Below, one piece after another: positions 1,284-56,221 of a stretch of 64,000 bases of DNA. Position 1 is the first letter of the stretch, and each line of letters begins with the position of its first letter. The notes under the pieces are model-generated. The model was not told the origin of the DNA. It saw only the letters and a program-made list of their open reading frames with translations, and did no database searches. A program made the position numbers and the translations under genes. Where the stretch lies: assembly GCA_011523785.1 (NCBI GenBank), contig WTFW01000060.1, forward strand, positions 2,116-66,115, in the 5' to 3' direction. Source of the stretch: Chloroflexota bacterium. Lineage in GTDB: Bacteria > Chloroflexota > UBA11872.

Positions 1284-1550
1284 TGGAGGGTTTGGTGAAG
1301 GGTTTTGGGCAGGCGGCAGGTTAATGGATGGCGGGAGCGGCGTGCTCCTACATGGCGAAGAGAATGAGGCAGTTGAATTGGCGTTGGTTGCGGCTGGCTC
1401 GACGTGGGGTGCTGGGGGTGGCAGCCACCCTCACCCTAGCCCTCTTCCATGGGGAGAGCGGAGAAGAGCAGCCCGCGACAGCCTGGGTTGCTGCTGACTT
1501 CGCGTGGAAGCTCGGGCTAGCAGCCACCCTCACCCTGCCCTCTCCCTCAA

Positions 1551-1608
1551 TGGTGTCCAGACCGGAGACATGGTGGACAGGTGTTCGGAGACATGGTTTA
1601 CACATCCA
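1551..1608. repeat. Direct repeat CGGAGACATGGT x2, 23 bp apart; possible remnant of an IS end
   Basis: cggagacatggt at 1563-1574 and 1586-1597 inside 'gtgtccagaccggagacatggtggacaggtgttcggagacatggtttacac'; no transposase ORF nearby. Confidence 0.35.
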
Positions 1609-1696
1609 GCGCTGAGGTCAAGGATTGGCGGGGCGGTTGGTGCGGGCGTCGCAGCGCCTAGTGTCTGGCTAGAGTCGTGTTAGCTGGACTGCGTGG

Positions 1697-1816
1697 ATGG
1701 CGAGCATGGAAACGTCGTTAGACGAGGTTGTGGAGCTGGGGCTGGTGGTGTTTGGGGTGCTCCTTTTCACCCTGTCGCTGGCCGGCATGCTTGGTCTTGT
1801 GCCGCCGCCGCCCTGA
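1697..1816 (+). CDS. Candidate 39-aa single-TM small protein
   Basis: MASMETSLDEVVELGLVVFGVLLFTLSLAGMLGLVPPPP*; below the ORF-track length cutoff; acidic N-terminus plus one hydrophobic segment. Confidence 0.45.
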   Translation: MASMETSLDEVVELGLVVFGVLLFTLSLAGMLGLVPPPP

Positions 1817-1865
1817 GGAGCGCGGGTCCAGCGATACCCGTGGCAGCGGCGCCTGAAGTCACGGG

Positions 1866-2105
1866 GTGCGCTTGAACAGTCGGGACGTTCCGGCGAGCTG
1901 GGTGTTCATCGGTCTGTTTGGCCTCGTGATCACTGGCATCGGACGCATGGCCTAGCTTGCCGACGTTCCCGCCCATAGCTTCACCCCGGCGCAAGACAGT
2001 CTTCTGACCGTTGCCGACTGGATGGTAAAGGCGTCGGTGGGCGCGATTCTGGGGTTTGCGGGGGCGCGAGCCGGTTCACGGGATACCGATACGCCAGCCA
2101 GCTAG
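1866..2105 (+). pseudogene. Small two-TM ORF interrupted by an in-frame TAG at 1953-1955
   Basis: VRLNSRDVPASWVFIGLFGLVITGIGRMA*LADVPAHSFTPAQDSLLTVADWMVKASVGAILGFAGARAGSRDTDTPAS*; both halves read protein-like in one frame. Confidence 0.35.
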
Positions 2106-2129
2106 CAATCGGCCGCGCTCGTGGCGAGC

Positions 2130-2250
2130 GCCGGGACAAGCTAAGGGCAGGCTCTCCAGGAGACTCCGGCCCGGCTCGCCACGGACGGCGAGTGGGCTCC
2201 TCTGGCAAGCTCAGGACAGGTTCAGGCGAGTCCGTACAGGACGGCGAGGA
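2130..2250. repeat. Dispersed intergenic repeat units (AGCTCAGGACAGGTTC / CCGGCTCGCCACGGACGGCGAG type)
   Basis: 'acaagctaagggcaggctctcc', 'ccggctcgccacggacggcgagtgg' and 'gcaagctcaggacaggttc' resemble units at 2-19, 208-226, 346-370 and 448-470. Confidence 0.7.
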
Positions 2251-2259
2251 CGACTGGCG

Positions 2260-2685
2260 ATGACTCAGGAATCGCGGAGAGCGATGGTTGTTCCAAGCTT
2301 GCGGTATCGGGATGCACCGGCGGCTATCGAGTTTTTGTGTGAGGCGTTCGGGTTTACCAGGCGCCTGGTGGTGCCGGGCTATGACGGGACGATCCGGCAC
2401 GCGCAGCTGACGCTGGGCGACGGGATGATCATGTTGGGTTCGGCGCAGAACCGTGACTTTGGTCCGCACGTCAGGACGCCCGAGGAGTTGGGCGGCAACA
2501 CGCAGAGCGCGTACGTGATCGTGGCGGAGATTGACGACCACTACCAGCACGCCAAGGCCGCCGGCGCCGAGATCGTGATGGAGATCGAGAACATGGACTA
2601 CGGCGGGCGGCTGTATTCCGCGCTGGATCCCGAGGGGAATCTGTGGCACTTCGGGTCGTACGACCCGTGGGCGGAGTCCGGCTAG
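2260..2685 (+). CDS. VOC family (glyoxalase/bleomycin-resistance-like) protein
   Basis: MTQESRRAMVVPSLRYRDAPAAIEFLCEAFGFTRR...DPEGNLWHFGSYDPW; start moved to ATG 2260 because the upstream sequence is repeat-derived. Confidence 0.85.
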   Translation: MTQESRRAMVVPSLRYRDAPAAIEFLCEAFGFTRRLVVPGYDGTIRHAQLTLGDGMIMLGSAQNRDFGPHVRTPEELGGNTQSAYVIVAEIDDHYQHAKAAGAEIVMEIENMDYGGRLYSALDPEGNLWHFGSYDPWAESG

Positions 2686-3956
2686 GCCGAGATTTCGCTG
2701 ATGGTGTCGCGGTAGAAGGGCGACGGTACGGGTCCTTCGAGCAGCGGATCGCCTGTGTCGCGCATCCAGTTGATGACCCTGGCGCCCAATTCGGCCTGGA
2801 CTGCGGCGGTTTCGGGGCGGCTGGCGAGGTTGGTTTGTTCGTTGGGGTCGGCCTGGAGGTCGTAGAGCTCGACTTCGACGTGGTGGGAGGGTTGCATGCG
2901 GCCCGCCACATCGCGGTAGGCGCCGCTGCCGGCGATGTCGCTGGGGATCTCGACGCCGAGTCCAGTTTCGAAGTTGCGGATGTATTTCCAGCGATCGGTG
3001 CGGATGCCGCGCATCGGGTCGTAGTAGCTGTGGTAGGTCTTTTCGATGAAGATTTCGTCGTAGCCGCGGGAGGCGCCAGCGGCCACGGGAAGCAGTGACG
3101 TTCCGTGCAGGTCGGGCGGCATGTCGGCGCCGGTCAGTTCGATCAGCGTGGGCACGACATCCATGGTGCTGACCATGCCGGGGGGCGCCGCGCCCCCGCT
3201 GAGCGGGGTGCCGGGCAGGCGGGCGATGAGGGAGATTTCGATGCCGGGGTCGTACAGGGTGCACTTGGCGCGCGGGAAGGCGATGCCGTGGTCGCCGACG
3301 TAGAGCACGAGGGTCTGGTCGAGCAGGTTGCGGTCTTCCAGGATTCCAATCAAACGCCCGATGTAGTCGTCGGCGCGGTTGACGCAGCCCTGGAAGTCGG
3401 CCAGGTCGGCGCGGGTGTCGGGGGCGTCGACCAGGTAGGGCGGGACGGTGATGCCCTTCTGGTCGTAGGGCTGGCCGCCGAAGCCGTGGCCGCCGACGCG
3501 GTGGGTTTCGCCGAAGCCGACCTGGACGACGAAGGGGCGACCGCGGTCGGCATCTATGAACCGCGACACGCCGGCCGTAATGGCGTCGATGTCGCGGGTC
3601 TCGTCGAAGACGTCGTTGCCGATGCGCCGCGGGTCGCGGGCGGCGTGCTCAACGCCCCAGTGGCCGCTGCGGTAGCCGACGGTGCGCAGGATTTGGGGGA
3701 TGGTGCGTTCGCCGGGATGCAGGTCCCAGCGGAAATCGCGGTGCGTGAGGCCCATGGTGCCGTTGCAGTGGGGATAGCGGCCGGTGGTGAGACTGGCGCG
3801 GCTGGGCGAGCACTGGGGGGCGGTGGTATAGGCGTTGAAGCGGGCGCCCTGGGCCGCCAGGCGGTTGAGGTTGGGCGTGTCGACCGTCGTGACGCCGTAG
3901 GGCTCGATGAAGCGGCCGGTGTCGTGGGTGGTGACGATGAGGACGTTCGGCGGCAT
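2682..3956 (-). CDS. Sulfatase (Cys-type formylglycine sulfatase family)
   Basis: MPPNVLIVTTHDTGRFIEPYG...APQCSPSRASLTTGRYPHCNG (C-x-P-S-R), VLYVGDHGIAFPRAK. Confidence 0.92.
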   Translation of the reverse strand: MPPNVLIVTTHDTGRFIEPYGVTTVDTPNLNRLAAQGARFNAYTTAPQCSPSRASLTTGRYPHCNGTMGLTHRDFRWDLHPGERTIPQILRTVGYRSGHWGVEHAARDPRRIGNDVFDETRDIDAITAGVSRFIDADRGRPFVVQVGFGETHRVGGHGFGGQPYDQKGITVPPYLVDAPDTRADLADFQGCVNRADDYIGRLIGILEDRNLLDQTLVLYVGDHGIAFPRAKCTLYDPGIEISLIARLPGTPLSGGAAPPGMVSTMDVVPTLIELTGADMPPDLHGTSLLPVAAGASRGYDEIFIEKTYHSYYDPMRGIRTDRWKYIRNFETGLGVEIPSDIAGSGAYRDVAGRMQPSHHVEVELYDLQADPNEQTNLASRPETAAVQAELGARVINWMRDTGDPLLEGPVPSPFYRDTISEISA

Positions 3957-4056
3957 AGGGTGTTGCCTGCGAGCGGCGGGCCGGGAAGTCTAGCCAGCTT
4001 CCATTGGAGCCGATGCCATAATCGCCGCGCAAACCGATAGCCCCCGAGGGAATCCG

Positions 4057-21141: not shown

Positions 21142-21963
21142 TCAGGACTTTCGGGTGACGTGGACCTGGCCGTGGGGTGGGCCGTTCCAGCGGGGGGAGT
21201 GGCGGAGGTGGTCGAGGATTTGGGCGAGTTCATCGATGGAGGATTCGATGAGGCGTTCGCCGGCTTCGCGGGTGCCCTTGCGGGCGTCGCCCTTGGCGCC
21301 GGAGGGGGCGTGGGCGTTGAAGGCGTTGGGCCAGACGAGTTCGAGTTCCTGGAGCGGCTCAAACATGGCCTTGAAGGCTTCGTCGAAGGTGCCGGGGGCC
21401 AGGGCGTCCTCGCGGATGAGGTCGGGCGCCAGGTAGTAGGAGTGGGAGCTTTCCATCTCGCAGGCGTGGCCGCCGGGGATCTCGCCGGCGATGTCCTTGA
21501 GAACCGAATCGTCGCCGAGGGTGTAGTGGCCGACGCAGCCCAGGAAGTCGATGTCCAGCCGGAAGCCGATGTCCTGCACGGCGACCGACATGAGCCACTG
21601 GTTGCCGCCGTGGCCGTTCACGATCAGGAAGCGGCGGAAGCCGTGGTGGCGCATGGAGACGATGATGTCCTCGAGCAGGTCCAGGAACGTCTCGGGACGC
21701 AGGGTCATGGTGCCGGGGAAGTTCATGTGGTGGTCGGAGATGCCCCAGGGGATGGCGGGCAGGGCCAGCAGGCGCGGGGCCAGGCGTTCGGCGGCGCGTT
21801 CGCAGTAGGCGTGGGCGATCAGGTGGTCCTGGCCCAGGCCCAGGTGCGGGCCGTGTTGTTCGGTGGAGCCGATAGGGATGAGGACCAGTTCCACAGTCTC
21901 GGCGGCCTGGGCCACCTCGGGCCAGGACATCTTGTGGAGGGCGTAGGTGGGCAGATTGCTCAT
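21142..21963 (-). CDS. Creatininase family protein
   Basis: ELVLIPIGSTEQHGPHLGLGQDHLIAHAYCERAAERL...FRRFLIVNGHGGNQ. Confidence 0.9.
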   Translation of the reverse strand: MSNLPTYALHKMSWPEVAQAAETVELVLIPIGSTEQHGPHLGLGQDHLIAHAYCERAAERLAPRLLALPAIPWGISDHHMNFPGTMTLRPETFLDLLEDIIVSMRHHGFRRFLIVNGHGGNQWLMSVAVQDIGFRLDIDFLGCVGHYTLGDDSVLKDIAGEIPGGHACEMESSHSYYLAPDLIREDALAPGTFDEAFKAMFEPLQELELVWPNAFNAHAPSGAKGDARKGTREAGERLIESSIDELAQILDHLRHSPRWNGPPHGQVHVTRKS

Positions 21964-22793
21964 GGGGTGTGCAGGGCGTGGCGCCAGCCGGGCATGCGGC
22001 CGCGGGCGAGGAGGTCGTCGGGCGAGTCGAGCAGGGTGGTGATGAGCTGGTCGGCGCGCTCCTCGATGACGTGGATCATGCGCCAGCCGTCCTCGGCGGT
22101 GGCCAGCCTGGCGTCGCCGACGGCGCCGTTGGCGGAGAAGTCGGAGAAGTCGTGGTTGCGGCGGATGGAACGTCGCCAGAAGCGCTGGCGCAGGCGGCTG
22201 CCGCGCGGGCTGAGGTCGCCGGGGGCGAGGCTGTCGTGCTTGACGCGGTCCGGACGCAGGGCCATGAGCTCGGCGGTTTCAAGCTCGCAGGCGTGGCCGG
22301 AGGTGGGGGACTTGACGATCTCGTCCTCCAGGTCGTCGTCTTCCAGGTCGTAGAGCGAAATGGACGCCAGGAAGTCCAGGGGCAGGCGGGTGGGGAGGGT
22401 TTGCAGGGCGACGGTCATGACGGAGGTGTTGCCGCTGTGCCAGTTGGTGAGCAGGAAGCGCTTGAAGCCGTGGTGCAGCAGGGAGGCCAGGCAGTCTTCC
22501 AGCACGTGCAGGAAGGTCTGGGGGCGCAGCGTGATCGAGCCGGGGAAGCCCATGTGATAGGTGGACATCCCGTAGGGCATGGTGGGGGCGACCAGCAGGC
22601 GGGGGTGAAAGCGCTCGGCCAGGCGCAGGGTGAGGTCCTCGCAGATCACCAGGTCGGTGTCGAGCGAGGTGTTGGGTCCGTGTTGCTCGATGGAGCCGAT
22701 GGGGATCATGACCAGTTCCACGCCGTCGCGAGCGCGGGCGACCTCGGGCGAGGTCATGTGGGTAAGGCGGAGCGGCGACGGCAGGTCGGCCAA
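21960..22793 (-). CDS. Creatininase family protein (divergent paralog)
   Basis: LADLPSPLRLTHMTSPEVARARDGVELVMIPIGSIEQHGPNTSLDTDLVICEDL...FLLTNWHSGNTS; TTG start chosen by alignment with paralog MSNLPTYALHKMSWPEVA; 4-bp overlap with 21142..21963. Confidence 0.85.
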   Translation of the reverse strand: MADLPSPLRLTHMTSPEVARARDGVELVMIPIGSIEQHGPNTSLDTDLVICEDLTLRLAERFHPRLLVAPTMPYGMSTYHMGFPGSITLRPQTFLHVLEDCLASLLHHGFKRFLLTNWHSGNTSVMTVALQTLPTRLPLDFLASISLYDLEDDDLEDEIVKSPTSGHACELETAELMALRPDRVKHDSLAPGDLSPRGSRLRQRFWRRSIRRNHDFSDFSANGAVGDARLATAEDGWRMIHVIEERADQLITTLLDSPDDLLARGRMPGWRHALHTP

Positions 22794-22857
22794 GGGGTGC
22801 GTATCCAGGGTGGAGTCGGCGATATGATAAGCGGCGACGGCTGGGCGAGCAGTATCC

Positions 22858-23622
22858 ATGGTTCTGGTCGTCGATGTCGGTAATACCGACACCAAATTCG
22901 GCGTATTCAGCGGCGAGGAGTTGGGCGCGCGCTGGGCGGTGCACAGCGACCTGAACCGCAGCGCCGCGGAGCACGAAGCGCTGTTGCGCGCCATGCTGGC
23001 GCATCACCAGGTGACGGGGATCGAGGGCGCCGTTATCGGTTCGGTGGTGCCCGCCCTGACCGAGCGCATGGCCGCGGCGGTGAGGTCCGCGGCGGGGTGC
23101 GAGCCGCTGATCGCGCGCTCGCAGGACGTGCGGGTGATTGACCTGGCGGTGGATCGGCCCGCGCAGGTGGGGATCGACCGGGTGGCCAACGCGCTGGCGG
23201 CGCGCGAGTTTTACCAGGCACCGGCGATCGTGGTGGACCTGGGCAGTGTCACCACGTTCGACATCGTCAACGCGGCGGGCAGCCTGGCGGGGGTGATTAT
23301 TACGCTGGGGATGCAGAACACGGCGCGGGCTCTGACGGCGGCGGGCGCGCAGTTGCCGTCAATCGACCTGGCGCGGCCGGCGCGGCTGGTGGGAACGGAG
23401 ACCACGGGGTCGATGCAATCCGGGGTGTACTGGGGGTATGTGCAGATGGTCCGCGGGTTGCTTGAGCAGTTGCAGTCCGAGCTGGGCGCCGACTACCGGG
23501 CCATCGCCACGGGCGGGCAGGCGCCGGTTGTGGTGGAGGATGTGGGGCTGTTCGAGATCGTGGACCTGGATCTGACGCTGCGCGGGCTGTGGCTGATCCA
23601 GCAGGCGGAGGCGGCGGCGTGA
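22858..23622 (+). CDS. coaX: Type III pantothenate kinase
   Basis: MVLVVDVGNTDTKFGVFSG...DRPAQVGIDRVANALAA...IVVDLGSVTTFDIVNAAG; next to coaBC. Confidence 0.9.
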   Translation: MVLVVDVGNTDTKFGVFSGEELGARWAVHSDLNRSAAEHEALLRAMLAHHQVTGIEGAVIGSVVPALTERMAAAVRSAAGCEPLIARSQDVRVIDLAVDRPAQVGIDRVANALAAREFYQAPAIVVDLGSVTTFDIVNAAGSLAGVIITLGMQNTARALTAAGAQLPSIDLARPARLVGTETTGSMQSGVYWGYVQMVRGLLEQLQSELGADYRAIATGGQAPVVVEDVGLFEIVDLDLTLRGLWLIQQAEAAA

Positions 23623-24815
23623 GCGTGCTGCAGGGCGCGCGGGTGGTGCTGTACGTCACCGGCGGCATCGCGGCGTACAAGGCCTCGGACCTGGCCAGCA
23701 AGCTGACGCAGGCGGGCACGGAAGTGGACGTGGTGCTGTCGCGGGCGGCCGAGGACTTCGTGGGCCCGCTGACGTTCCAGGCGCTGACGCAGCGCACCGT
23801 TTTCAGGGCCAGCGACGCCATGACGGCCGAGAACGAGATCGCGCACGTGCGGCTGGCCGCGGACGCGGACGTGCTGCTGGTTGCGCCGGCGACGGCCAGC
23901 GCGATTGCGCGGCTGGCGCACGGGCAGGCGGACGACCTGGGGTCAGCCGTCGCGCTGTCGACGCAGGCGCCCATCGTGGTGGCGCCGGCCATGGAGCCCG
24001 GGATGTACGCCAACCCGGCCACACAGGAGAACCTGGCGACGCTGCGGCGGCGCGGCGTGCGAGTGATCGAGCCGGAGAGCGGCCGGCTGGCCTCGGGCGC
24101 GGAGGGCAAGGGACGGCTGCCGGAGACGCCGGTGCTGCTGGATGTGCTCCGTGCCACGCTTGGGCGTGAAGGGCCGCTGAGGGACCGTGTGGTCGTCGTG
24201 TCGGCCGGCGGCACGCGCGAGTACATGGATCCGGTGCGGTTTATTGGGAACCCGGCCAGCGGTCGCCAGGGGGTTGAACTGGCGCGGGCGGCCATCGAGC
24301 GCGGAGCCACGACGCGGTTGGTGCTGGGGTCAGGGACGGTGGAGCCGCCGGCGGGCGTGGACACCGTGCGCGTCGAGTCCGCCGAGGAGATGCTGGATGC
24401 GCTGCGCGAGGCGGTGAGCGGCTGCGACGCGCTGATCATGAATGCCGCCGTCGGCGATTACCGACCGGCCAGCACCTCCGACGTGAAGCTGAAGCGCGGC
24501 GGCGAACCGGCGGGTATCGACCTGGTCGAGAACCCGGACCTGCTGCAGGCCTTGCAGGGGGACTTTCTGCGAATCGGGTTCGCGGCGGAGACCAACGACC
24601 ACCTCGAGAATGCCAGGAGCAAGCTGCTCGGCAAGGAGCTGGACGCCCTGGTCGTCAACGACGTGGCCGGGTCGAACACGGGATTTGCCGCGGAGACCAA
24701 CGCCGTCACGATCCTGCGGCCGGAGCACCCGGACCTTGAGGTCCCGCTGACCAGCAAGTCGGGCGTGGCCTCGGCGGTGCTGGACGTGGTGGTTGAAATG
24801 ATCGGCGGTCGCTGA
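23619..24815 (+). CDS. coaBC: Bifunctional phosphopantothenoylcysteine decarboxylase/phosphopantothenate-cysteine ligase
   Basis: GARVVLYVTGGIAAYKASDLASKLTQAG...PAMEPGMYANPATQENL...VVVSAGGTREYMDPVRFIGNPASGRQG...LIMNAAVGDYRP; GTG start overlapping coaX stop. Confidence 0.95.
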   Translation: MSVLQGARVVLYVTGGIAAYKASDLASKLTQAGTEVDVVLSRAAEDFVGPLTFQALTQRTVFRASDAMTAENEIAHVRLAADADVLLVAPATASAIARLAHGQADDLGSAVALSTQAPIVVAPAMEPGMYANPATQENLATLRRRGVRVIEPESGRLASGAEGKGRLPETPVLLDVLRATLGREGPLRDRVVVVSAGGTREYMDPVRFIGNPASGRQGVELARAAIERGATTRLVLGSGTVEPPAGVDTVRVESAEEMLDALREAVSGCDALIMNAAVGDYRPASTSDVKLKRGGEPAGIDLVENPDLLQALQGDFLRIGFAAETNDHLENARSKLLGKELDALVVNDVAGSNTGFAAETNAVTILRPEHPDLEVPLTSKSGVASAVLDVVVEMIGGR

Positions 24816-24871
24816 CGGCGTCGGCGGGGCCGCGGCTGAAGGGCTGGCCGGCGGACCGGACGGCGGGTTCC

Positions 24872-25900
24872 ATGGCCTTCCACGCGCTGCAGGCGGCGCT
24901 GGCGGCGATGGGGATCGAGCGGTCGCTGGAGTCGCTGGTGACGCGCTCGGGCGAGGCGTTCTGGGTGCCGTGGAGCGAGACGGCCGACGCCGAGACGATG
25001 CGGTACACCCGAATGATGTCCACGCTGTTTCGCGCCACCGACCTGGCTCGCGTACGGGTAGTCATCGGGGCCGAGGACGAGCCGGGCAGCGCCCTCGCCG
25101 AGGTGCGCGACGAGACGGCCGCCGGGCGGCTGGTGCTCGCGCCGGTTTTCTACGACGCCAGGTTTGGCGTGATCCAGTCCGTCGATTCCGAAGGCATAGC
25201 CAGGGCGGTTGGCCCGGATCAATTGGAACCGGGTGAGATTGACCTGAGGGGCGGCTGGAGCGGCGCGTTTCCAGCTCTTCGTGTTCACAAGGGCATTTAT
25301 GGAGTTGTCCGACGCGACCGGCCAATGAAGGAGAATCGGATTCCGGTGCCCGACCTGGCGGGGATCCTCTTCGTGCCGCTTGGGGGTGGGAGCGGCCCGT
25401 ACGACGTCGTGTTCGGCATCGACGCCGTACGCGGGGCCACAGAGGCCGTCCGAGCCGGGGCGCCGTTGCGTGACACGGAGGCGCTGGAGCGCCTGCTGGT
25501 TAGCTTCGAGCAGGCGGAGTTTGGCTTCGGGTGCGCCGAGCGCTGGCTGGCGTCGAAGGAGGCCGACCACTTGTGGGACGCGCCCGACCTGGCGCGACTG
25601 GCGCGGAGCATGCGGGCGGCGTCGGGGGAGCTGGCGGAGCGGCTGTGGGATTCCACGGGTACGGCTTCGGCGCTGGCGCTGGGACGGGCCGTGAAGGGGA
25701 GAAAGTCCGCGGTGTTCGAACTCCCCGTCGGCCTGGATCGGGAGCCGCCTGGTCGCGTGGTGGAGCTGTCGCGGGGCCGGGCCGTGATCGTGGACACGCG
25801 CAGCCGCCGCGCGGCGCTTTCCCGGCTGGCCGACGTGGTGGAGCGTGCGGCGATGGCGTTTGCGAAAGAGGTTGACAGCGTGGGGGCGCTCTCCCGATAG
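24872..25900 (+). CDS. Hypothetical protein (BtrH-like/DUF4872-like suspected)
   Basis: 342 aa ORF in coding context; MAFHALQAALAAMGIERSLESLVTRSGEAFWVPWSE...; family assignment uncertain. Confidence 0.6.
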   Translation: MAFHALQAALAAMGIERSLESLVTRSGEAFWVPWSETADAETMRYTRMMSTLFRATDLARVRVVIGAEDEPGSALAEVRDETAAGRLVLAPVFYDARFGVIQSVDSEGIARAVGPDQLEPGEIDLRGGWSGAFPALRVHKGIYGVVRRDRPMKENRIPVPDLAGILFVPLGGGSGPYDVVFGIDAVRGATEAVRAGAPLRDTEALERLLVSFEQAEFGFGCAERWLASKEADHLWDAPDLARLARSMRAASGELAERLWDSTGTASALALGRAVKGRKSAVFELPVGLDREPPGRVVELSRGRAVIVDTRSRRAALSRLADVVERAAMAFAKEVDSVGALSR

Positions 25901-25944
25901 GCCGCGGCCGGCGGATGTTGGCTCGGACGACTCGAGGGCCTGAC

Positions 25945-27162
25945 CTAGGGGCCGGGTGTGCCGACGGGCGGCGACAGCGGCTCGGGCTCTGGCTGTTCGG
26001 GCCGAGAGCGTACGAGCGGCAGCCCAATCAGGGTGGAGACGACGAACGAAGCGGCCACGGCGATGCCCACGACGCCGAAGCCCTGGACGTCCAACAGCAG
26101 GGTGATCAGCGGGGCCACCGCCAGCGCGGCCAGATCAACGCTGAGGTGCATGATCCCGATACTGCGGCCAACGGTGGTGCGCGGCATGCGCTCAGCGATC
26201 ATCACGGCCGGCAGGGGCGTTACGAGTCCGCTGGGCGCGAAGAGCACCGCCACCAGGATGTACCAGGCCAGTCCGGCGGGGAACACCAGGAGCAAGGCCG
26301 CCGCCATACTGAGACCGCCCGTCGCAATCAGGGCGCGCCGATGGCCTAGGCGATCCATCACCGGTCCGGTCTTGTAGGTCACGAATGTGCGCAACGCGTT
26401 GGCCAAGGTGAGCACGAGGCCGACGCGGGCCGGGTCGAAGTCGAGACCCACGCTGCCATAGAGGGGCAACACGACCTGCTTGAGGGCGAACGTACCGGCC
26501 CCAAGCATGAGAACGGAGAAGCCAATCACGGGTAGCAGGGAGGGGCTGAGCCCGAGCCGAGCGAGCCTGGGAATCGGCGCGGCTCCTGACTCCGGCGCCG
26601 GCTGGGGCGCTCGCACGAACAGCAACGGCAGAAGCGCGGCGATGCCGCCAACCAGAGCGCCCAGGGCAAAGGCGGCCCGCCAGCCAAACGCGCTGGCAGC
26701 CACGCCGGAGAGCATGGGCGCGAGGAGGGCACCCATCTGAACAGCGGCCAAGATCCGACCGGCGGTGTGGCTACGGTCGCTTCCCTCACTTGAACGCACG
26801 GTATGGGCGAGTCCGGTGGTGTAGACGAGGGCCGTGCCCAGCCCGGTTACCAGCACACCCGCCAGCAGCACGCGATAGTCCAGGGCGAGCGCGCTGATTG
26901 CACAGCCGACGGCGGTGCAGAGCGTGCCGGCGGTCAGTGGCGTGTGCGGCGGCAGCCGGTCGGCCAGGAAGCCGGCGGGCACGATGGCCACGGCGCGAGC
27001 CACGGCTTGCATGGACAGCAGCAAGCCCAGCACCGGCAGCGATACGTCGAACTCAGCTTGCAGTTCGCCCAGGATCGGTCCAATCAAGTTGACGTTGAAC
27101 GCCATGACGGTGAGAAGGACAAAAATTGCGCCAAGGCTGGACGATGCAGGCTGGCGAATCAT
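25945..27162 (-). CDS. MFS transporter
   Basis: MIRQPASSSLGAIFVLLTVMAFNVNLIGPILGELQAEFDVSLPVLGLLLSMQAVARAVAIVPAGFLADRLP. Confidence 0.88.
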   Translation of the reverse strand: MIRQPASSSLGAIFVLLTVMAFNVNLIGPILGELQAEFDVSLPVLGLLLSMQAVARAVAIVPAGFLADRLPPHTPLTAGTLCTAVGCAISALALDYRVLLAGVLVTGLGTALVYTTGLAHTVRSSEGSDRSHTAGRILAAVQMGALLAPMLSGVAASAFGWRAAFALGALVGGIAALLPLLFVRAPQPAPESGAAPIPRLARLGLSPSLLPVIGFSVLMLGAGTFALKQVVLPLYGSVGLDFDPARVGLVLTLANALRTFVTYKTGPVMDRLGHRRALIATGGLSMAAALLLVFPAGLAWYILVAVLFAPSGLVTPLPAVMIAERMPRTTVGRSIGIMHLSVDLAALAVAPLITLLLDVQGFGVVGIAVAASFVVSTLIGLPLVRSRPEQPEPEPLSPPVGTPGP

Positions 27163-27326
27163 GGAGCCAGTTGGGAAAGCTAGCCGTCTACGTATTCGGG
27201 TCGGATGGTAGCCTCGCTCATGCCTGTCGCGGGCCGCTGGCTGAACGCCCGACACATTGGGGCAGACCCTGGCCGCGGGTCATTTGCGCCCGCGCCTGGC
27301 GCCCAGCCGGCGGGAGTCCAACTGCC

Positions 27327-27527
27327 GTGAGTCGCCAGAAGCCGGTCATCGAGCAGATTTCACCGAATCCGGAAACACTGCGACGGCAGGAGGGCCCGCG
27401 AGCGCCGCAATCGTCCGCCCCCGGCGGCAGCGGCATGTGGCTGCTGGTGGCCATCGTTATTGGGATTGCCGTCGGCGCCGCCATCGGGGCGGGCGCCGGC
27501 CTGTACGTGTTCGGCTGGGTGGGCTAG
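27327..27527 (+). CDS. Small single-TM protein
   Basis: VSRQKPVIEQISPNPETLRRQEGPRAPQSSAPGGSGMWLLVAIVIGIAVGAAIGAGAGLYVFGWVG*; GTG start. Confidence 0.5.
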   Translation: MSRQKPVIEQISPNPETLRRQEGPRAPQSSAPGGSGMWLLVAIVIGIAVGAAIGAGAGLYVFGWVG

Positions 27528-28396
27528 AGCGCGGGCATCTCGCTCAGGGGCACGCGGCGGGAGTCCGAGGTCGCCGAACGTTCGGCCGCCGCCACCACGC
27601 GAATCACGTCCACCATTTCTTGGTTGCTAATCGGCGGCTCGCCGGTGTTCAGCATGGCGAGGAACTGCCTGATGACCTCCAGGTACATGCGCGGGAAGCC
27701 GTCGATCGTGTCGGCCAAGTGCATGTCCGCGTGGGTCCAGCCCGTCTCGCCGAGGGCCACGCAGATCATGCCAGTCCAGGCCTCGCGGGCCTGGTTGGCG
27801 ATGCCCACCCGGCCGTCGGGCCAGCGGATGGTGACCACGTCGGCCAACTCGCCGCGGATCGACGTGACGTCCTCGGCGCCGACGCCGAATATCGCGTGCA
27901 TCACGTCCACGGCGTGGACGCCGTAGAGCTGCCAGATCTGGGGCAGGGTGAACATGATCGAGCGCGTGCGGCCCAGGTTGGGCAGGCGCTCGATCAGCCG
28001 GCGCACGGCGCGGTCGTAGCGCACGGCTGAGGCGGACAGCAGCGGCACGCCGGCGGCGGAAGCCGCGCGGACGAGTGTGATGGCCTCCTGCGGGTCGTCG
28101 CATAGCGGTTTGTCCACGAACAGGGGCAGGCCGCGATCGACCGCCTGCATGGCGGGCGCGAAGTGGTCGGGGCCCCAGCGGTTGAGGACCAGCACGGCGT
28201 CCACGTCTTGCATGGCCTGCTCGGGTGCGTCGACGACCTGGTCGATGCCGCTTTCCAGGGCCTTGGCGCGGGCCTGCTCCGGGTCGGCGCCCCAGAGCCG
28301 GGTGACGCGCAGGCCGGGGCCAGCCAGCCCACGGTTGATGATGCCGGCGAAGTTCTCGGTATGCGTGCTATCGGCGCCGATAATCGCGAGGTTCAT
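27524..28396 (-). CDS. Gfo/Idh/MocA family oxidoreductase
   Basis: MNLAIIGADSTHTENFAGIINRG...GLPLFVDKPLCDDPQEAI. Confidence 0.88.
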   Translation of the reverse strand: MNLAIIGADSTHTENFAGIINRGLAGPGLRVTRLWGADPEQARAKALESGIDQVVDAPEQAMQDVDAVLVLNRWGPDHFAPAMQAVDRGLPLFVDKPLCDDPQEAITLVRAASAAGVPLLSASAVRYDRAVRRLIERLPNLGRTRSIMFTLPQIWQLYGVHAVDVMHAIFGVGAEDVTSIRGELADVVTIRWPDGRVGIANQAREAWTGMICVALGETGWTHADMHLADTIDGFPRMYLEVIRQFLAMLNTGEPPISNQEMVDVIRVVAAAERSATSDSRRVPLSEMPAL

Positions 28397-28470
28397 GTAG
28401 CCGCTCCCAGCGCTGGCCAGTCCGCAGCAGGGTATCGCGCCGCACGCCGGCGACTGGTTACGCTGGCGGC

Positions 28471-30180
28471 GTGGCTGACACGCGCGACGATCCCAGGTGC
28501 AGTCTCACGGGGGCGGTGTGGGACATCGCGCCGCGCGCGCCCGCCGCGCTGTTCGCCGCGGTGGACGAGCTTCCGCCGCTGGCGGTCCAGGTGCTGCACA
28601 ACCGCGGGCACGACACGGCCGAAAAGCTGCACGAGTTCATGCTTGGCCCGCTGCCGCCGCACGACCCGTACCTGCTGGACGAGATGGACGCGGCGGTGGC
28701 GCGCATCGGGCAGGCGATGCAGAAGCGCGAGCGGGTGTGTATCTATGGCGACTACGACGTGGACGGCGTCAGCGCCACGGCGATGTTGCTGGAGACCTGT
28801 GCGACGTTGGGGCTGGACGCCTTTCCGTACATTCCGGAGCGGCTGACCGAGGGCTACGGGCTCAACGCCGGCGCGATCGACGCCGTGGCCAGTGAACGCG
28901 CGACGCTCATCATTACGGCCGACTGCGGGGCCACGGCGCACGGGGAAATCGACCGAGCGGCCGCGGCCGGCCTGGACGTGATCGTGACCGACCACCATCC
29001 GACGGAAGCCCGCCCGGCAAAGGCGGCCGCGCTGCTCAACCCCAATGCGCCGGGATCCGGGTACCCGTTCGGCGGTCTGTCCGGGGTGGGCGTGGCCTAC
29101 AAGCTGGTGCAGGCACTGGCCGACGAGTTTCCGGAGCAGTTGCCGGATCCTGAGCGCTTCCTGGACCTGGTGGCGCTGGGCACGGTGGCCGATGTTGCGC
29201 CACTGACGGACGAGAACCGGGCGTATGTGACGGAAGGGCTGGAGTGGATGCGGGCGTCGCCGCGACCGGGCTTGCGGGCGCTGGCCGAGGCGGCGCGGCG
29301 TACGCCGGAGGCGATCCGGTCGGACGACATTGCCTTTGCGCTGGCGCCGCGTCTCAACGCCGCCGGGCGGATTGCCAGCGCGCAATTGGCGCTGGAATTG
29401 CTGCAGGCCAGGCATCCGGTGCGGGCCGCGGAACTGGCGGATGAACTGAACGAACTGAACGCCGAGCGGCGCCGGTTGACCCAGGACGTGGTGGACGCCG
29501 CGCGGGCGATGGTCAACGGCAGCCCGGTGGTCCTGGCCGCCGATGCGGGATTCGCGCCTGGCGTGGTTGGGCTGGCCGCCTCGCGCCTGAGCGAGGAGTT
29601 TGGCGCGCCCGCGTTCATCGGGGCGGAGATCGACGGGCTGGTGCATGGCTCGGCGCGCGCGCCCGACGGATTTAACCTCCGCGATCTGCTGAAGCGGCAG
29701 GCCGATTGGCTGGAAGGCTGGGGTGGGCACGCGGGCGCGGCGGGCTTTTCCGTGCTGCCGCACAACCTCGAAGCGCTGCGTGACGGCCTGGCGCAGGCGC
29801 TCGCCAACCTTGAGCTGCCTGAATTCACCGGGCCGCGCCTGCGCGCGGACGGCCGTGTTTTTCCGCGCACGATCTCGTGGGAGACCTACCAGGCGCTGGA
29901 TTCGCTGGGGCCCTGGGGACAGGAACATGAAGAGCCGCGCCTGGTCGTAGAGAATGTACGAATCCAAAACACCCGGCTGGTGGGCAAGGATCACGTGGCG
30001 CTGCGATTCGAGGAGCTGGCGCGCAATGTCGAGGCCATTTGGTTCCGACACGGCGAACAGCAGGTCGCGTTGGGGCGCGGACGGTCCGTGGATGTGGCGT
30101 TCAGGTTGAGCCTGCGCAGCTTCCGAGGCGAGACCCGGTTGCAGATGCTCGTGGACGACATCCGGCTGCGGCCGGGTTAG
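28471..30180 (+). CDS. recJ: Single-stranded-DNA-specific exonuclease RecJ
   Basis: RVCIYGDYDVDGVSATAMLLE...LIITADCGAT...IVTDHHPTE...APRLNAAGRI; DHH/DHHA1 motifs. Confidence 0.95.
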   Translation: MADTRDDPRCSLTGAVWDIAPRAPAALFAAVDELPPLAVQVLHNRGHDTAEKLHEFMLGPLPPHDPYLLDEMDAAVARIGQAMQKRERVCIYGDYDVDGVSATAMLLETCATLGLDAFPYIPERLTEGYGLNAGAIDAVASERATLIITADCGATAHGEIDRAAAAGLDVIVTDHHPTEARPAKAAALLNPNAPGSGYPFGGLSGVGVAYKLVQALADEFPEQLPDPERFLDLVALGTVADVAPLTDENRAYVTEGLEWMRASPRPGLRALAEAARRTPEAIRSDDIAFALAPRLNAAGRIASAQLALELLQARHPVRAAELADELNELNAERRRLTQDVVDAARAMVNGSPVVLAADAGFAPGVVGLAASRLSEEFGAPAFIGAEIDGLVHGSARAPDGFNLRDLLKRQADWLEGWGGHAGAAGFSVLPHNLEALRDGLAQALANLELPEFTGPRLRADGRVFPRTISWETYQALDSLGPWGQEHEEPRLVVENVRIQNTRLVGKDHVALRFEELARNVEAIWFRHGEQQVALGRGRSVDVAFRLSLRSFRGETRLQMLVDDIRLRPG

Positions 30181-49868: not shown

Positions 49869-50519
49869 CTAGGTGCGCTGAACCGCGTCGAAGAACTCGG
49901 CGCGCGTGGCCGGGTTGTCGCGGAACGCGCCGCGTGTAACCGAGGTGACCATTTGGCTGCCGGGCTTCTTGACGCCGCGCATGGTCATGCAGGTGTGTTC
50001 TGCCTTGATCGTCACGGCCACGCCCACCGGTTCGAGCACCTGCTCGATCCGGTCGGCGATCTGGCACGACAGGCGCTCCTGGACTTGGGGTCGGCGCGCC
50101 AGGTGCTCCACCACGCGCGCCAGTTTACTCAGCCCCACGATCCGCTCATTCGGGATGTAGCCCACCGCCGCATGCCCAAAGAACGGCAGCAGATGGTGTT
50201 CGCAGAGCGAGTAGAACGGGATGTCCCGCACCACGATCATCTCGTCGTGCGCGTGCTCGAAGGTTGTTGCCAGGTAGTCGTCCGGCTCGCCCGCCAACCC
50301 TGCAAACAGCTCTTCGTACATGCGGGCCACGCGTGCCGGCGTCTTGACCAGCCCGTCGCGGTCGGGGTCTTCACCCACCGCGATCAGGATCTCTCGGACC
50401 GCGGCCGCGATCCGCTCGCGATCGGCGCACAGCGCGCCGTTCGGCGAGACGCGCGACGCGTCGGCGGTGTGCGGGATGGACGCGGTCGGCGTACCGTCAT
50501 GCAGGGGCGTTGAACTCAT
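49869..50519 (-). CDS. folE: GTP cyclohydrolase I
   Basis: [57 protein letters not shown]...[15 protein letters not shown]; start trimmed. Confidence 0.97.
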
Positions 50520-50554
50520 GCGTGAGACTCGTTTCGTCGGGGGGCGTGGTGGTG

Positions 50555-50992
50555 TCAGGCGGGCGAGGGTTCGAGCCGGTCCACGCAGGCCTGGTCGTCC
50601 GGGTCCTCGCCCAGCGGGGTATCGAACCAGGCCGTCAGAATCTCGTCGGCCAAGGCCGGCGTCGTGAGCCGCAAGCTCAGGGCCAGCACGTTTGCCCGGT
50701 TCCAAAGCCGGGCGCCTCGAGCGGTTTCCGCGTCGGCGCAGAGCGCTGCGCGAATTCCGGCAACTTTGTTCGCCGCGATGCTGACGCCGGTACCCGTCCA
50801 GCAAAGGACGATGCCTTCGTCCACCGCACCGTTGGCCACGGCTTGACCGACACTGCGTCCGGTTTCCGGCCACTGCTGGTCAAGGCCAGCCAGCGGACCA
50901 AACGGCGCCAGCGCATGCCCGCGTTCCTTCAGGTTCGCGATGATGTGGTCGGTCAGCGTCGTTCGTTCGTCGCTTGCGATGGCAATCCGCAT
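50555..50992 (-). CDS. rpiB: RpiB/LacA/LacB family sugar-phosphate isomerase
   Basis: [26 protein letters not shown]...[26 protein letters not shown]. Confidence 0.88.
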
Positions 50993-51162
50993 GGTTCGAG
51001 TGGCTGTGAGCGTTTCAGACGAGTATACGAACGGTGATCTGGACGAAAGAAAGCGGGCCTGCGCGGACGTAGCCATGGCCGAATACTCGGACATCCTTGG
51101 GAGCCACCTCGGCGCTACCGGCAAACGGCTCACCATCGTCGGCCATCTGGTCGGGTACGCTG

Positions 51163-51308: not shown

Positions 51309-52070
51309 ATGGGCAAAGCCGACGGATCAACCGCTCCGCAAGACCTGCCCGGACGTCTCTTCATCGTCGAGGGAATCGACGGGTCGGGGAAGAGCACGCA
51401 ACTCGACTTGCTCCATAAGTGGCTGGTGAGCCAGGGGTACCTGGTGATCTTCACCGAGTGGAACTCGTCGCGAATCGTGCGTCGCACCACGCGGCGCGGA
51501 AAGCGCCGCCGCATCCTGACGCCTCTCACCTTCAGCCTCATCCATGCGGCCGACTTCTCCAGCCGCGTGCATGAGCAGATCATTCCGGCGTTGCAAGCCG
51601 GCGCCATTGTTCTGGCCGATCGTTACGTCTATACGGCCTATGCCCGCGACGCGGCTCGCGGCGTCAGCGCCCGCTGGTTACGACGGCTCTACTCGTTTGC
51701 CCCCGACCCAACGCTGGCCTTCTATTTCGATGTTCCACTTGACGAAGCCATCCGTCGGATTGAGCTCGGCCGCGACGAACTCAGTCACTACGAAGCCGGC
51801 TTGGACTTGGGTCTGAGTGGGGATCCCGCCGAATCGTTCCGACTATTCCAGGGGATCATTCGCGACCAATACGGGCGGCTCGTTGACGAGTTCGGCCTGG
51901 AGCGCATCGACGCCACGGCCACGCTGGTGAATCAGCAGGAAAAGATGCGCGCGCTGGTGCAGCCGCATCTGGCTGGCGCAATGCAAGCCGAAGACTCAGG
52001 ACTGCAGGAAGCTCTGGCGGCCACCGGCCTCAGCGGTCGGTATCTGGCTGACATGTGGCGGGCGCTGTGA
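51309..52070 (+). CDS. Thymidylate kinase-like protein (copy 1)
   Basis: GRLFIVEGIDGSGKSTQLDLLHKWL...AIVLADRYVYTAYARDAARG; no TREPGG motif. Confidence 0.88.
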   Translation: MGKADGSTAPQDLPGRLFIVEGIDGSGKSTQLDLLHKWLVSQGYLVIFTEWNSSRIVRRTTRRGKRRRILTPLTFSLIHAADFSSRVHEQIIPALQAGAIVLADRYVYTAYARDAARGVSARWLRRLYSFAPDPTLAFYFDVPLDEAIRRIELGRDELSHYEAGLDLGLSGDPAESFRLFQGIIRDQYGRLVDEFGLERIDATATLVNQQEKMRALVQPHLAGAMQAEDSGLQEALAATGLSGRYLADMWRAL

Positions 52071-52783
52071 GCGCTCCGGTCAACCGACCGTTGCGTTTCT
52101 ACGGCGAGCCGCCGCCGGGGATCGACTTGAGCCCGTTGCCCGGCCGCCTGATCGTGGTTGAAGGCCAGGACGGTTCGGGGCGCTCCACGCAGGTCCGGCT
52201 GATGAAAGAGTGGCTGGAAGATCATGGATTCGGGGTCGTCGATACCGGCCTGACGCGGTCCGAACTGGCTGGCCCCGGGATTCGGCGCGCGAAGTCGGGC
52301 CATGATCTGGACCCAATCACCCTGAACCTGTTCTACGCCACCGATTTCTATGACCGCGTGGAACGGCTGATCATTCCGTCCCTCCGGGCCGGCATGGTGG
52401 TCCTGGCCGATCGCTACATCTTTTCCATGATCGCTCGTGCCGCCACGCGCGGGATCGATCCCGCCTGGACCGCCGACATCTACGACTTTGCGCCGGTTCC
52501 CGATGCTGTCGTTTACCTGGATGTAGACATTGAGCACCTGCTACCCAGGATACTGATCAACGGTGGATTCGATTTCTGGGAATCGGGGCTGGACGTTATG
52601 CGGGGACAGGACGTCTTCGAGAGTTTCCTGAGCTACCAGGCACGCATCAGCGCGCACTTTCATGAACTTGCGATACAGCACAACTTTGCGGTTATTGATG
52701 CACGCGGACCAATCAAGCAGACCTTTGAAACCATCCTTAAGCAACTTCAGCGCGTAGTGGATGACATGCGCTCAACGTCGTAG
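52067..52783 (+). CDS. Thymidylate kinase-like protein (copy 2, Walker A Lys replaced by Arg)
   Basis: GRLIVVEGQDGSGRSTQVRLMKEWL...MVVLADRYIFSMIARAATRG; GTG overlaps copy 1 TGA (gtga). Confidence 0.88.
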   Translation: MSAPVNRPLRFYGEPPPGIDLSPLPGRLIVVEGQDGSGRSTQVRLMKEWLEDHGFGVVDTGLTRSELAGPGIRRAKSGHDLDPITLNLFYATDFYDRVERLIIPSLRAGMVVLADRYIFSMIARAATRGIDPAWTADIYDFAPVPDAVVYLDVDIEHLLPRILINGGFDFWESGLDVMRGQDVFESFLSYQARISAHFHELAIQHNFAVIDARGPIKQTFETILKQLQRVVDDMRSTS

Positions 52784-52885: not shown

Positions 52886-53476
52886 CTACCGCAGCAAACG
52901 GTCGATGAGCTCCTCGTCCAACTCCATTCGCTCGTCGGCGGTCTTGAAGAGCTCAAACGAGTATGTCGGATACCCGTGGTTGCCCTGGGGCGGACCGTGA
53001 ACGAGCCAGACGATGATTCCCTCGTTCTTTAGCACCCGAACCGCAGGAACAAAGTCGCCGTCGCCGGCAACCAGCGCGATGTGTTGAACCTGGTTCTTGC
53101 CCGCCAGCAGCGCCATATCCAGACCCAGCAGCAGATCCACCTGCTTCTGCTCGAAAATCGGGACGCCCGATTCATCCACGCCGGACATCCGAAGGTGTCC
53201 CAGGCGCACCTCGAAGCGTGGCAAGTAGCGCAGTGCGTCCTCAAAGCGACGTGAGTTTGAGTACCGATCCATCTCTTCAGGCGTTGGCGGATCGCTGCGA
53301 TATGGCCGACAGTGGTAATAGTACGCTCGTAGCAGTTCGACCTTGTCCGCGCTAGACTCCTCGACGTGATCCTGGATCTCGTCAACGAGTTTCTTGACGT
53401 CGAGCCGAACGTCGAATTCGTGCTTCTGTAAAGCTTCGAGATAGCCACCGTCGATAAAGACCGCCAGGTTTCCCAT
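52886..53476 (-). CDS. NYN domain (LabA-like/PIN-like RNase) protein
   Basis: MGNLAVFIDGGYLEAL...KQVDLLLGLDMALLAGKNQVQHIALVAGDGDFVPAVRVLKNEGIIVWLV. Confidence 0.92.
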   Translation of the reverse strand: MGNLAVFIDGGYLEALQKHEFDVRLDVKKLVDEIQDHVEESSADKVELLRAYYYHCRPYRSDPPTPEEMDRYSNSRRFEDALRYLPRFEVRLGHLRMSGVDESGVPIFEQKQVDLLLGLDMALLAGKNQVQHIALVAGDGDFVPAVRVLKNEGIIVWLVHGPPQGNHGYPTYSFELFKTADERMELDEELIDRLLR

Positions 53477-53668
53477 ATCACTACCTTTCGAAGAGGAGAA
53501 GAGGAAACAAACTTGGCGCGACCTTGCCGCTCGTTAAACAGAGACTCTGCTGTGCGCCGATGGCACGGACGCGCTATTGGAGACTTGCTAAACCGCCCGT
53601 AGTGGCCATATTGAGACTCTTCCTAGTCTCCGTCAAGCAGGAATCGTAAGATTCCTTACGAAACTGAC

Positions 53669-53690
53669 GCGGCGGCCTTTCGACCGCCGC
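53669..53690 (-). terminator. Putative terminator hairpin at the folB 3' end
   Basis: GCGGCGG-cctttcga-CCGCCGC overlapping the folB stop codon; followed on the minus strand by gtcagtttc. Confidence 0.6.
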
Positions 53691-54073
53691 TAGCCGTGCT
53701 TGTCGGTGCGCTCCCGGTCGATCGTCACTGCCGCTTCCCGGAGTATCGATCCGGAGATTGCGACGCCGGGCTTGGCGATTCGGACCCGGCTTCGCTGGAC
53801 CAGCGAAAATCGTTCGAACATCGCCCTGGCGATTCGCTCCGCCAGAGTTTCAAGCAGGTTGACCGGCTCGCCCTCGATGATCTCGGCGACGAGCTCGTAC
53901 GCCTCGCTGTAATTCACCGTGGCGTCGAGGGTGTCAGTCTCGCCTGCCCGGCGCAGGTCGGACTCAAGCTCCAGGTCCACAACAAACCGCTGTCCCAGCG
54001 CGCGCTCTTCCGGCCGCACGCCGTGATAGCCGTACAAGGTGATTCCAACCAGGCTGATCGTGTCAGGTGGCAT
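53690..54073 (-). CDS. folB: Dihydroneopterin aldolase
   Basis: DTISLVGITLYGYHGVRPEERALGQRFVVDLELESDL...VNYSEAYELV...NLLETLAERIA. Confidence 0.95.
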   Translation of the reverse strand: MPPDTISLVGITLYGYHGVRPEERALGQRFVVDLELESDLRRAGETDTLDATVNYSEAYELVAEIIEGEPVNLLETLAERIARAMFERFSLVQRSRVRIAKPGVAISGSILREAAVTIDRERTDKHG

Positions 54074-54920
54074 TGGGATCGGCCTCCTGCCGCGAGCGCA
54101 CCGCGTGGTACAGCACCAGTGCGCCGGCGACGGACACGTTCAACGAACCCACGCCACCGTACATCGGGATTCGCAAGGCCGCGTCACAGGCCTTGCGCAC
54201 CCCAGGACGGACCCCGCGCGATTCGCCGCCCACGACCACGCAGGTCGGGCGGCTGAAGTCCGCGTCGGTGAAGTCCGTATCGCCGTCCTGGTCCAGCGCG
54301 TAAACCCAGGCCCCCGCCTCCCGCAACTGGTCAAGCGCTCGCGAGACGTTGGCAACCTGGACCAGCGGTGTGCGCAGGCTGGCCCCGGCTGATGCCCGGG
54401 CCAGCCCGCCGGTAAGGGCGGCCGAGCGTCGGCCCGGCACGATGGCTCCGGCGCCATCCACCGCCTCCAGCGTCCGCAGCAACGCACCCAGGTTGCCCAC
54501 GTCTTGCACCTGGTCCGCCGCCAGGATCAACGGCGGCCCGCCGGCGCTCTCGCCCTCAAGCAAGTCCTCTATCGTCGCTGGCGGCGGGGGACGCACGGCC
54601 GCGACAACTCCCTGGTGTTGCCCGCCGTGACTGAGTTTATCGAGCTCCGATACGTCGGTGAAGGTGACCGCAACGGCTGCGGTCGCGGCCAGGGAACGAA
54701 TGTCGGCCATCGCTTCGGCCTGTGGTCGGGCGATAAAGACCCGCTCGACGGAAGCGCCGCGGCGCAATGCCTCCGTGACGGCGTGACGTCCCCAGACGCT
54801 GGCTGCGGCCGGAAGTTGCGGTCGGCCTACCCGCGACGCCAGACCGTGCCGTCGGGCGTGTCCTCGAGTACCACGTCGAGGGCGCCCAGATCGTCGCGGA
54901 TTTCGTCGGCGAGCTCCCAT
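54063..54920 (-). CDS. rlmB: SpoU/TrmH family rRNA 2'-O-methyltransferase (RlmB-like)
   Basis: SVWGRHAVTEALRRGASVERVFIA...LILAADQVQDVGNLGALLRTLEA...VVVGGESRGVRPGVRKACDAALRIPMYGGVGSLNVSVAGALVLYHA; start uncertain. Confidence 0.92.
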   Translation of the reverse strand: MGARRRNPRRSGRPRRGTRGHARRHGLASRVGRPQLPAAASVWGRHAVTEALRRGASVERVFIARPQAEAMADIRSLAATAAVAVTFTDVSELDKLSHGGQHQGVVAAVRPPPPATIEDLLEGESAGGPPLILAADQVQDVGNLGALLRTLEAVDGAGAIVPGRRSAALTGGLARASAGASLRTPLVQVANVSRALDQLREAGAWVYALDQDGDTDFTDADFSRPTCVVVGGESRGVRPGVRKACDAALRIPMYGGVGSLNVSVAGALVLYHAVRSRQEADPNAT

Positions 54921-56221
54921 TGCCTGGCCTCTCGCAGTTGCTGGCGCAAGTGCACCAGCAGATCGATAAATGGCGTCGCATCGTCGGACGCCGCGTCCGG
55001 TTCATGCAGTTCGATACCCAGCACGCCCAGCAGGCTGGTAAGCACACCCTGCGCTCGTTCCACGTCGTCCGCTCTGGACGTCGGCGCCAGGCGGTTGATG
55101 GCGCGTCCGAACTCGAACAGGGACCCTATCGCCCGCGGCGCGTTGAAGTCGTCGTCCATGGCGGCTTCGAACGCCTGCCGAGCAATGGCGGTTTCCGAGT
55201 CCAAATCCGCGCCGGATGTCTCGCGTGAGACATCGGCGCCGCCCTGGGCTCGGGAGACAGCCAGCAGCCGCTGGTATCCCGTACGCGTCTGCTCGGTCGC
55301 CGCCAGCGAGAACTGCAACGGCGAGCGATAGTGCACGCCCAGCAGGTAGAGCCGCAGCACGTCCGGCGGCACATCGGCCAGCACGTCCGCGGTGGTGGTG
55401 AAGTTCCCAACCGAATGCGCCATCTTCTCGCCGTCGGTCAGCACCAGGCCCGTGTGCGTCCAGTAGGACACGAACGGCGGACACCCGGTAGCAGCCTCGG
55501 ACTGGGCCAGTTCGTTTTCGTGGTGAGGAAAAATCAGGTCGGCGCCGCCGCCGTGGATGTCGATCCGCTCGCCCAGCGTGTGCCGGATCATCGTCGAGCA
55601 CTCGATATGCCAACCGGGCCGACCGCGCCCCCAGGGGCTCTCCCAGGTCACCGAGCTCTCGTCGTCACGCTTCCATAATGCCCAGTCGCGCGGGTCACGC
55701 TTCTCTTCGTCAACCGCAATTCGGGCGCCAGCCGCGCCGTCTTCCTCGGTTCGGCCGCTGAGTGCGCCGTAGTCCTCGAAGGTGCCCGCGTCGAAATAGA
55801 CGCCGGTCGAAGTCGGATAGGCGTGTCCACCGTCGATGAGCTCCTGCACGTGGTCGATGATCCCGGGAATGCTATCGGTCACGCGCGGATACTCGTCGGC
55901 GCGCCGGATCCGTAGCCGGTCCATCACCTCGAAGTACGCGTTGGTGTACTCACGCGCCCAGTCCAGCGGGTCGCGGCCGGCCACTCGCGCCCGGTCGATG
56001 ATCTTGTCGTCAATGTCCGTGAAGTTCTGGACGTACCGAACGGCGTAGCCGCGGTACTCCAGATAGCGCCGGATTACGTCCATATGCACAAACATGAACG
56101 CGTGTCCCACGTGCGGCCGGTCCTTGGGCGTCATGCCGCAGACGTACATCGTGACCGGATCGCCCAGCGGCTTGAACGGCTCTTTTTTCCCGGTGAGGGT
56201 GTTGGTGATCGCGAGCGTCAA
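54827..56221 (-). CDS. cysS: Cysteinyl-tRNA synthetase
   Basis: MYVCGMTPKDRPHVGHAFMFVHMDVIRRYL...NFTDIDDKIIDRA...WHIECSTMIRHTLG..IDIHGGGADLIFPHHENELAQSEA. Confidence 0.96.
   Translation of the reverse strand: MTLAITNTLTGKKEPFKPLGDPVTMYVCGMTPKDRPHVGHAFMFVHMDVIRRYLEYRGYAVRYVQNFTDIDDKIIDRARVAGRDPLDWAREYTNAYFEVMDRLRIRRADEYPRVTDSIPGIIDHVQELIDGGHAYPTSTGVYFDAGTFEDYGALSGRTEEDGAAGARIAVDEEKRDPRDWALWKRDDESSVTWESPWGRGRPGWHIECSTMIRHTLGERIDIHGGGADLIFPHHENELAQSEAATGCPPFVSYWTHTGLVLTDGEKMAHSVGNFTTTADVLADVPPDVLRLYLLGVHYRSPLQFSLAATEQTRTGYQRLLAVSRAQGGADVSRETSGADLDSETAIARQAFEAAMDDDFNAPRAIGSLFEFGRAINRLAPTSRADDVERAQGVLTSLLGVLGIELHEPDAASDDATPFIDLLVHLRQQLREARQWELADEIRDDLGALDVVLEDTPDGTVWRRG
55215..55234. promoter_or_regulatory. 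parS-like palindrome inside cysS
   Basis: GATGTCTC-gcgt-GAGACATC (8-bp arms); core TGTCTCGCGTGAGACA matches parS TGTTTCACGTGAAACA at 13/16; encodes DVSRETS. Confidence 0.4.

Follow-up and report, generated by a model that had tools for sequence, protein, structure and literature searches.

The closest described relatives of the two genes considered here, designated A and B, are P-loop kinases built on the thymidylate kinase (TMPK) fold. Canonical thymidylate kinases (TIGR00041) resemble A and B in superfamily, P-loop, DRY motif and fold, but they constitute a separate clade, and their TREPGG motif, the arginine of their ADR motif and their AYQ motif are replaced in A. The polyphosphate kinases of family PPK2 (PF03976) are likewise P-loop kinases with a TMPK-like architecture, and PPK2C of P. 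aeruginosa couples an inactive domain to an active one (PMC8776046). By analogy, this arrangement offers a precedent for a catalytic A and a non-catalytic B, although PPK2C is a fusion of domains whereas A and B are two genes. A and B do not themselves belong to PPK2: PF03976 is not among the Pfam matches of either protein up to E = 1, and the profile similarity to PPK2 is weak (39-55% probability).

In structure and in sequence, A and B both match ST1543 of S. tokodaii best (PDB 2PLR, 4NZY, 4RZX and 5H70), a protein that was deposited as a dTMP kinase and crystallised with ADP. It has TEWNSS, HATDF and RD in place of YQ in common with A, and differs from the A of this locus in being annotated as a dTMP kinase and, to judge from the titles of the published work, in having been studied as a single protein without a B partner. 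Crenarchaeota are stated to form and accumulate polyphosphate although they lack PPK1 and PPK2 (PMC6864096, PMC7831078, PMC10892726), and one of these articles (PMC10892726) draws the archaeal cluster of ppx and A-B described below with the label 'dTMP kinase', the available portion of its text offering no comment on that gene. According to the passages in which Hofmann et al. (2024, bioRxiv 10.1101/2024.08.28.610084; 2026, JBC 302:111283) are cited (PMC11677633, PMC13318637), the polyphosphate-synthesising enzyme of S. acidocaldarius is the 'archaeal family 3 polyphosphate kinase' (PPK3).

The A and B genes of the window (the whole 64 kb stretch of Chloroflexota DNA that was analysed) probably encode the two subunits of a heteromeric polyphosphate kinase on the TMPK fold, of which A would be catalytic and B a pseudokinase. 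The reaction of A would be a reversible transfer of phosphate, with ATP/ADP on one side and the terminus of a polyphosphate chain on the other. B would be an ancient paralogue of A that lost the canonical catalytic residues and became a non-catalytic partner, binding polyphosphate or a nucleotide and stabilising or regulating A. The two proteins would form a complex; their genes show conserved coupling and co-evolution.

The A-B pair of the window

The first-pass annotation described, at 51309-52783, two TMPK-like open reading frames that overlap at GTGA and differ in their Walker A motifs; both frames were confirmed in place (Table 1), and the overlap is likely to reflect translational coupling. 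A carries GIDGSGKST, EWNSSRIVRR, TPLTFSLIHAADF and ADRY, and B carries GQDGSGRST, GLTRSELAG, DPITLNLFYATDF and ADRY. The reported retention of DRY in both copies and the substitution of arginine for the Walker A lysine of B were borne out, and the pair, its gene order and this Walker A difference all recur across phyla, far beyond chance. TREPGG is indeed missing from both proteins, with EWNSS in its place in A and GLTRS in B; the segment that replaces it in A, however, is not peculiar to A, as ST1543 (2PLR) has TEWNSS too.

Both proteins match the Pfam family Thymidylate_kin (77 bits for A and 81 bits for B, cut-off 27). Against the NCBIfam dTMP kinase model TIGR00041 (cut-off 83.25), A scores just below the cut-off (79.9) and B just above it (86.2). 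The AlphaFold2 models are confident (mean pLDDT 90.4 for A and 91.3 for B), and both have the TMPK fold, with TM-scores on target against ST1543 of up to 0.93 for A and up to 0.91 for B.

Table 1. Features of the A-B pair and its flanks, in coordinates of the window
Feature	Position	Strand	Description
Upstream neighbours of the pair	49869-51136	-	folE- and rpiB-like, by eye
Gene A	51309..52070	+	ATG start, 253 aa; putative catalytic subunit; P-loop kinase with the TMPK fold, of the same type as S. tokodaii ST1543; motifs GIDGSGKST, EWNSS, DRY..TAYARD
Walker A of A, GIDGSGKST	51372..51398	+	residues 22-30; Lys28 in 99/99 A sequences
EWNSS of A	51456..51470	+	residues 50-54, TREPGG position; WNS in 99/99 A sequences
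GTGA overlap	52067..52070	+	stop codon of A (TGA) and start codon of B (GTG) in common
Gene B	52067..52783	+	GTG start, 238 aa; putative pseudokinase subunit; motifs GQDGSGRST, TGLTRS, N-terminal FYG motif
Walker A of B, GQDGSGRST	52163..52189	+	residues 33-41; Arg at Arg39 position in 90/94 B sequences
Downstream neighbours of the pair	52886-56221	-	NYN-domain, folB-, rlmB- and cysS-like, by eye

Substrate-reading and catalytic residues

Canonical TMPKs read thymine through the arginine of ADR and the Tyr-Gln that follows DRY. When 99 A and 94 B sequences are aligned, the former, which is arginine in 7/7 canonical sequences, has become phenylalanine at A83 in 97/99 A sequences, and the latter, also kept in 7/7 canonical sequences, has become Arg-Asp at A113-114 in 99/99. 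Residues 55-72 of A form a basic stretch, with a mean net charge of +4.3 as against +0.1 in canonical TMPKs. Because A has different, invariant residues where canonical TMPKs read the base, a substrate other than dTMP, as the first-pass annotation proposed, is likely for A.

A canonical tmk was found elsewhere in the genome of the window, on contig C120, with TREPGG, SAAR and DR..AYQ. Apart from the pair, 36/36 pair-bearing genomes tested, that of the window included, have another gene that scores above the TIGR00041 cut-off, and in none of the 36 would A be the sole dTMP kinase. The motifs of this separate gene were read in 24 of the 36 genomes, where TxEP and DR..AYQ occur in nearly all; that of S. 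tokodaii has TQEP, SADR and DR..AYQ. The Pfam and TIGR00041 matches and the deposition of ST1543 as a dTMP kinase would fit an ordinary (archaeal-type) dTMP kinase in A, with B as its auxiliary or degenerate duplicate, a reading made very unlikely by the other canonical dTMP kinase in 36/36 genomes, by the replacement of TREPGG, the thymine-contacting arginine and YQ throughout A, and by the fact that B is conserved, selected and co-inherited.

The P-loop lysine and the arginine of DRY are each present in 99/99 A sequences. In B, the P-loop position is arginine in 90/94 and lysine in 4/94, and the four sequences that keep lysine are all Sulfolobales-like and have lost the arginine of DRY, which is glycine in 13/13 Sulfolobales-like B sequences. 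A has, and B lacks, the combination of a P-loop GxxGxGKS/T with DR(Y/F/H) that marks canonical dTMP kinases. B looks like a pseudokinase, in agreement with the first-pass annotation, because every B (94/94) lacks at least one of the two residues, a criterion drawn from sequence only.

The least probable of the readings considered, and a very doubtful one, is that B is an active kinase with arginine in place of the P-loop lysine, so that A and B would be two active enzymes in series or an active heterodimer like the dAK/dGK of Lactobacillus. Most B sequences retain DRY, the Walker-type acidic residue and the E..SG.D segment, and the arginine is strictly kept rather than random. The loss of the DRY arginine to glycine in all 13 Sulfolobales B sequences, including the four with lysine, suggests instead that catalysis by B is not needed.

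Distribution and ancestry

In the class to which the window belongs (41 genomes searched), A and B are adjacent genes in families f1, f3 and f5 and in part of f2, and the pair was not found in family f4. A wider scan took one genome per species and considered the best 80 loci; both genes are present in 79 of these 80, and in the one exception (L112) the sequence ends at A. Judged by record titles, the co-occurrence of A and B extends over about 20 bacterial and archaeal phyla, among them Chloroflexota, Acidobacteriota, Nitrospirota, Planctomycetota, Verrucomicrobiota, Myxococcota, Nitrososphaerota and Euryarchaeota. A sample of 300 Thermoproteota genomes includes 24 with the pair. No A-B fusions occur in the long frames examined (L221, L222, L122).

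A maximum-likelihood tree unites the B sequences (100/99); the A sequences hold together in 94% of bootstrap trees, and the canonical TMPKs stand apart from both. The distances among A sequences mirror those among B sequences (r = 0.88 over 94 pairs), a correlation reached in 0/999 permutations. Within the genus of the window, dN/dS ranges from 0.035 to 0.08 in A and from 0.05 to 0.11 in B. A and B are two distinct clades that are inherited together, both under strong purifying selection, and their history was probably one old duplication followed by joint inheritance. Local decay of B or an error of assembly is excluded by the conserved arginine, the strong purifying selection and the presence of B in most relatives.

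At the base of B in the tree are two second copies from Cyanobacteria/Melainabacteria, L142 (4657-5334) and L136 (4640-5389). The second copy of L142 retains GKST and EWKTS, and may represent a state preceding the loss of lysine in B. The large genomes of family f21 have extra, diverged A- or B-like copies next to the main pair (G144:C6:14946-15587; G274:C805:4838-5984; G186:C383:14328-15490).

Association with polyphosphate genes

Neighbouring families, verified by Pfam, were counted within 4 kb of the pair in the best 80 loci. PPX/GppA occurs in 44, CHAD in 35, a SixA-like protein in 31 and PPK2 in 6, and 58 of the 80 have at least one of these four. Several members of the window's class likewise have polyphosphate genes around the pair. 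At one locus (L074), a single 883-aa frame with fused CHAD and PPX-like regions (1363-4014) lies between B and A.

In the S. tokodaii genome, recognised by the 100% identity of its gene A to 2PLR, ST1543 occupies the A position in a sixA-ppx-A-B-CHAD operon, the CHAD-like gene of which scores 21.5 bits, slightly below the Pfam cut-off. The order sixA, ppx, A, B, with A-B directly downstream of ppx, is retained in 13/13 Sulfolobales-like genomes fetched, in which PPK2 was not found. Nitrososphaeria-like genomes have the same genes, with ppx and sixA inverted in some. The A and B of the window are homologous to this pair of Sulfolobales and differ from it in being bacterial, in having a B that keeps DRY and has the Walker A arginine, and in belonging to a genus without PPX and CHAD. 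Given the position of A-B immediately after ppx in these archaeal genomes, the enzyme of Hofmann et al. is likely to be A, or A with B, an assignment that follows synteny. If so, the pair is a bacterial member of an already reported kind and not categorically new; it is probably the bacterial branch of the archaeal family 3 polyphosphate kinase.

PPX is present in 24/24 pair-bearing Thermoproteota as against 7/276 others (Fisher p = 1.5e-29; kinship is uncorrected here, as in all the counts over genomes), and PPK1 was not found in the 24. In the class of the window, PPK1 is present in 0/28 pair-bearing genomes, the window's own included, and in 9/9 genomes of family f4, all of which are without the pair.

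The genus of the window seems to have lost PPX and CHAD, which were undetected in 9/9 genomes tested, all of which keep the pair. In other members of the lineage they persist: CHAD still adjoins the pair in a genome of the same family (G003), and a genome of the same order (G020) has both CHAD and PPX. Profiles of polyphosphate genes gave no match on the 64 kb window, and inspection by eye found no polyphosphate gene among the neighbours listed in Table 1; the pair has other neighbours in relatives. Since neither PPX nor CHAD was detected in any of the nine genomes, the local context gives no support in this genus, to which a function in polyphosphate metabolism would extend by orthology. A PPK2 gene is present in the genome of the window (G000:C71:7668-8330), and thus the pair need not be its sole polyphosphate enzyme.

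That this genus keeps the pair but not PPX or CHAD would also suit a heteromeric nucleotide kinase with an unusual substrate, either another nucleoside monophosphate or an alarmone-like nucleotide, which would work alongside polyphosphate enzymes, as would the membership of A and B in the TMPK family and fold, their ADP-bound relatives, and the base-reading residues, which are altered and not simply lost. Such an enzyme is nevertheless unlikely, given the tight co-occurrence with PPX, the pattern of PPK1, the basic patch in A, and the new polyphosphate kinase reported, according to the articles that cite it, in Sulfolobales, where A-B adjoins ppx.

A two-subunit polyphosphate kinase, if that is what the pair encodes, would be a candidate polyphosphate-making enzyme for bacteria and archaea without PPK1, including the Chloroflexota class of the window. 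It would correct the annotation of a large 'dTMP kinase' family, one member of which is a solved structure, and would allow direct tests, on two small proteins, of what a conserved pseudokinase subunit contributes to polyphosphate synthesis. A broader proposition is evenly balanced between acceptance and doubt: that this polyphosphate kinase is widespread in bacteria and archaea, that its pseudokinase subunit is obligatory and its Walker A arginine selected for polyphosphate binding, that it substitutes for PPK1 in several bacterial lineages, and that many 'dTMP kinase' genes, including ST1543, are misannotated.

Among 400 Chloroflexota, the trend between PPK1 and the pair is weaker than in the class of the window: PPK1 and the pair are found together in 23/70, mainly in families f21 and f56. 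The presence of both in these two families rules out a strict replacement of PPK1 across Chloroflexota, and the association (p = 4e-4) is concentrated in particular families. In two Chloroflexota genomes, PPK1 lies a few kb from A-B on the same contig (G339:C1, about 2650573-2655577; G143:C100, about 21910-29358), so that the pair can coexist with PPK1 as well as take its place.
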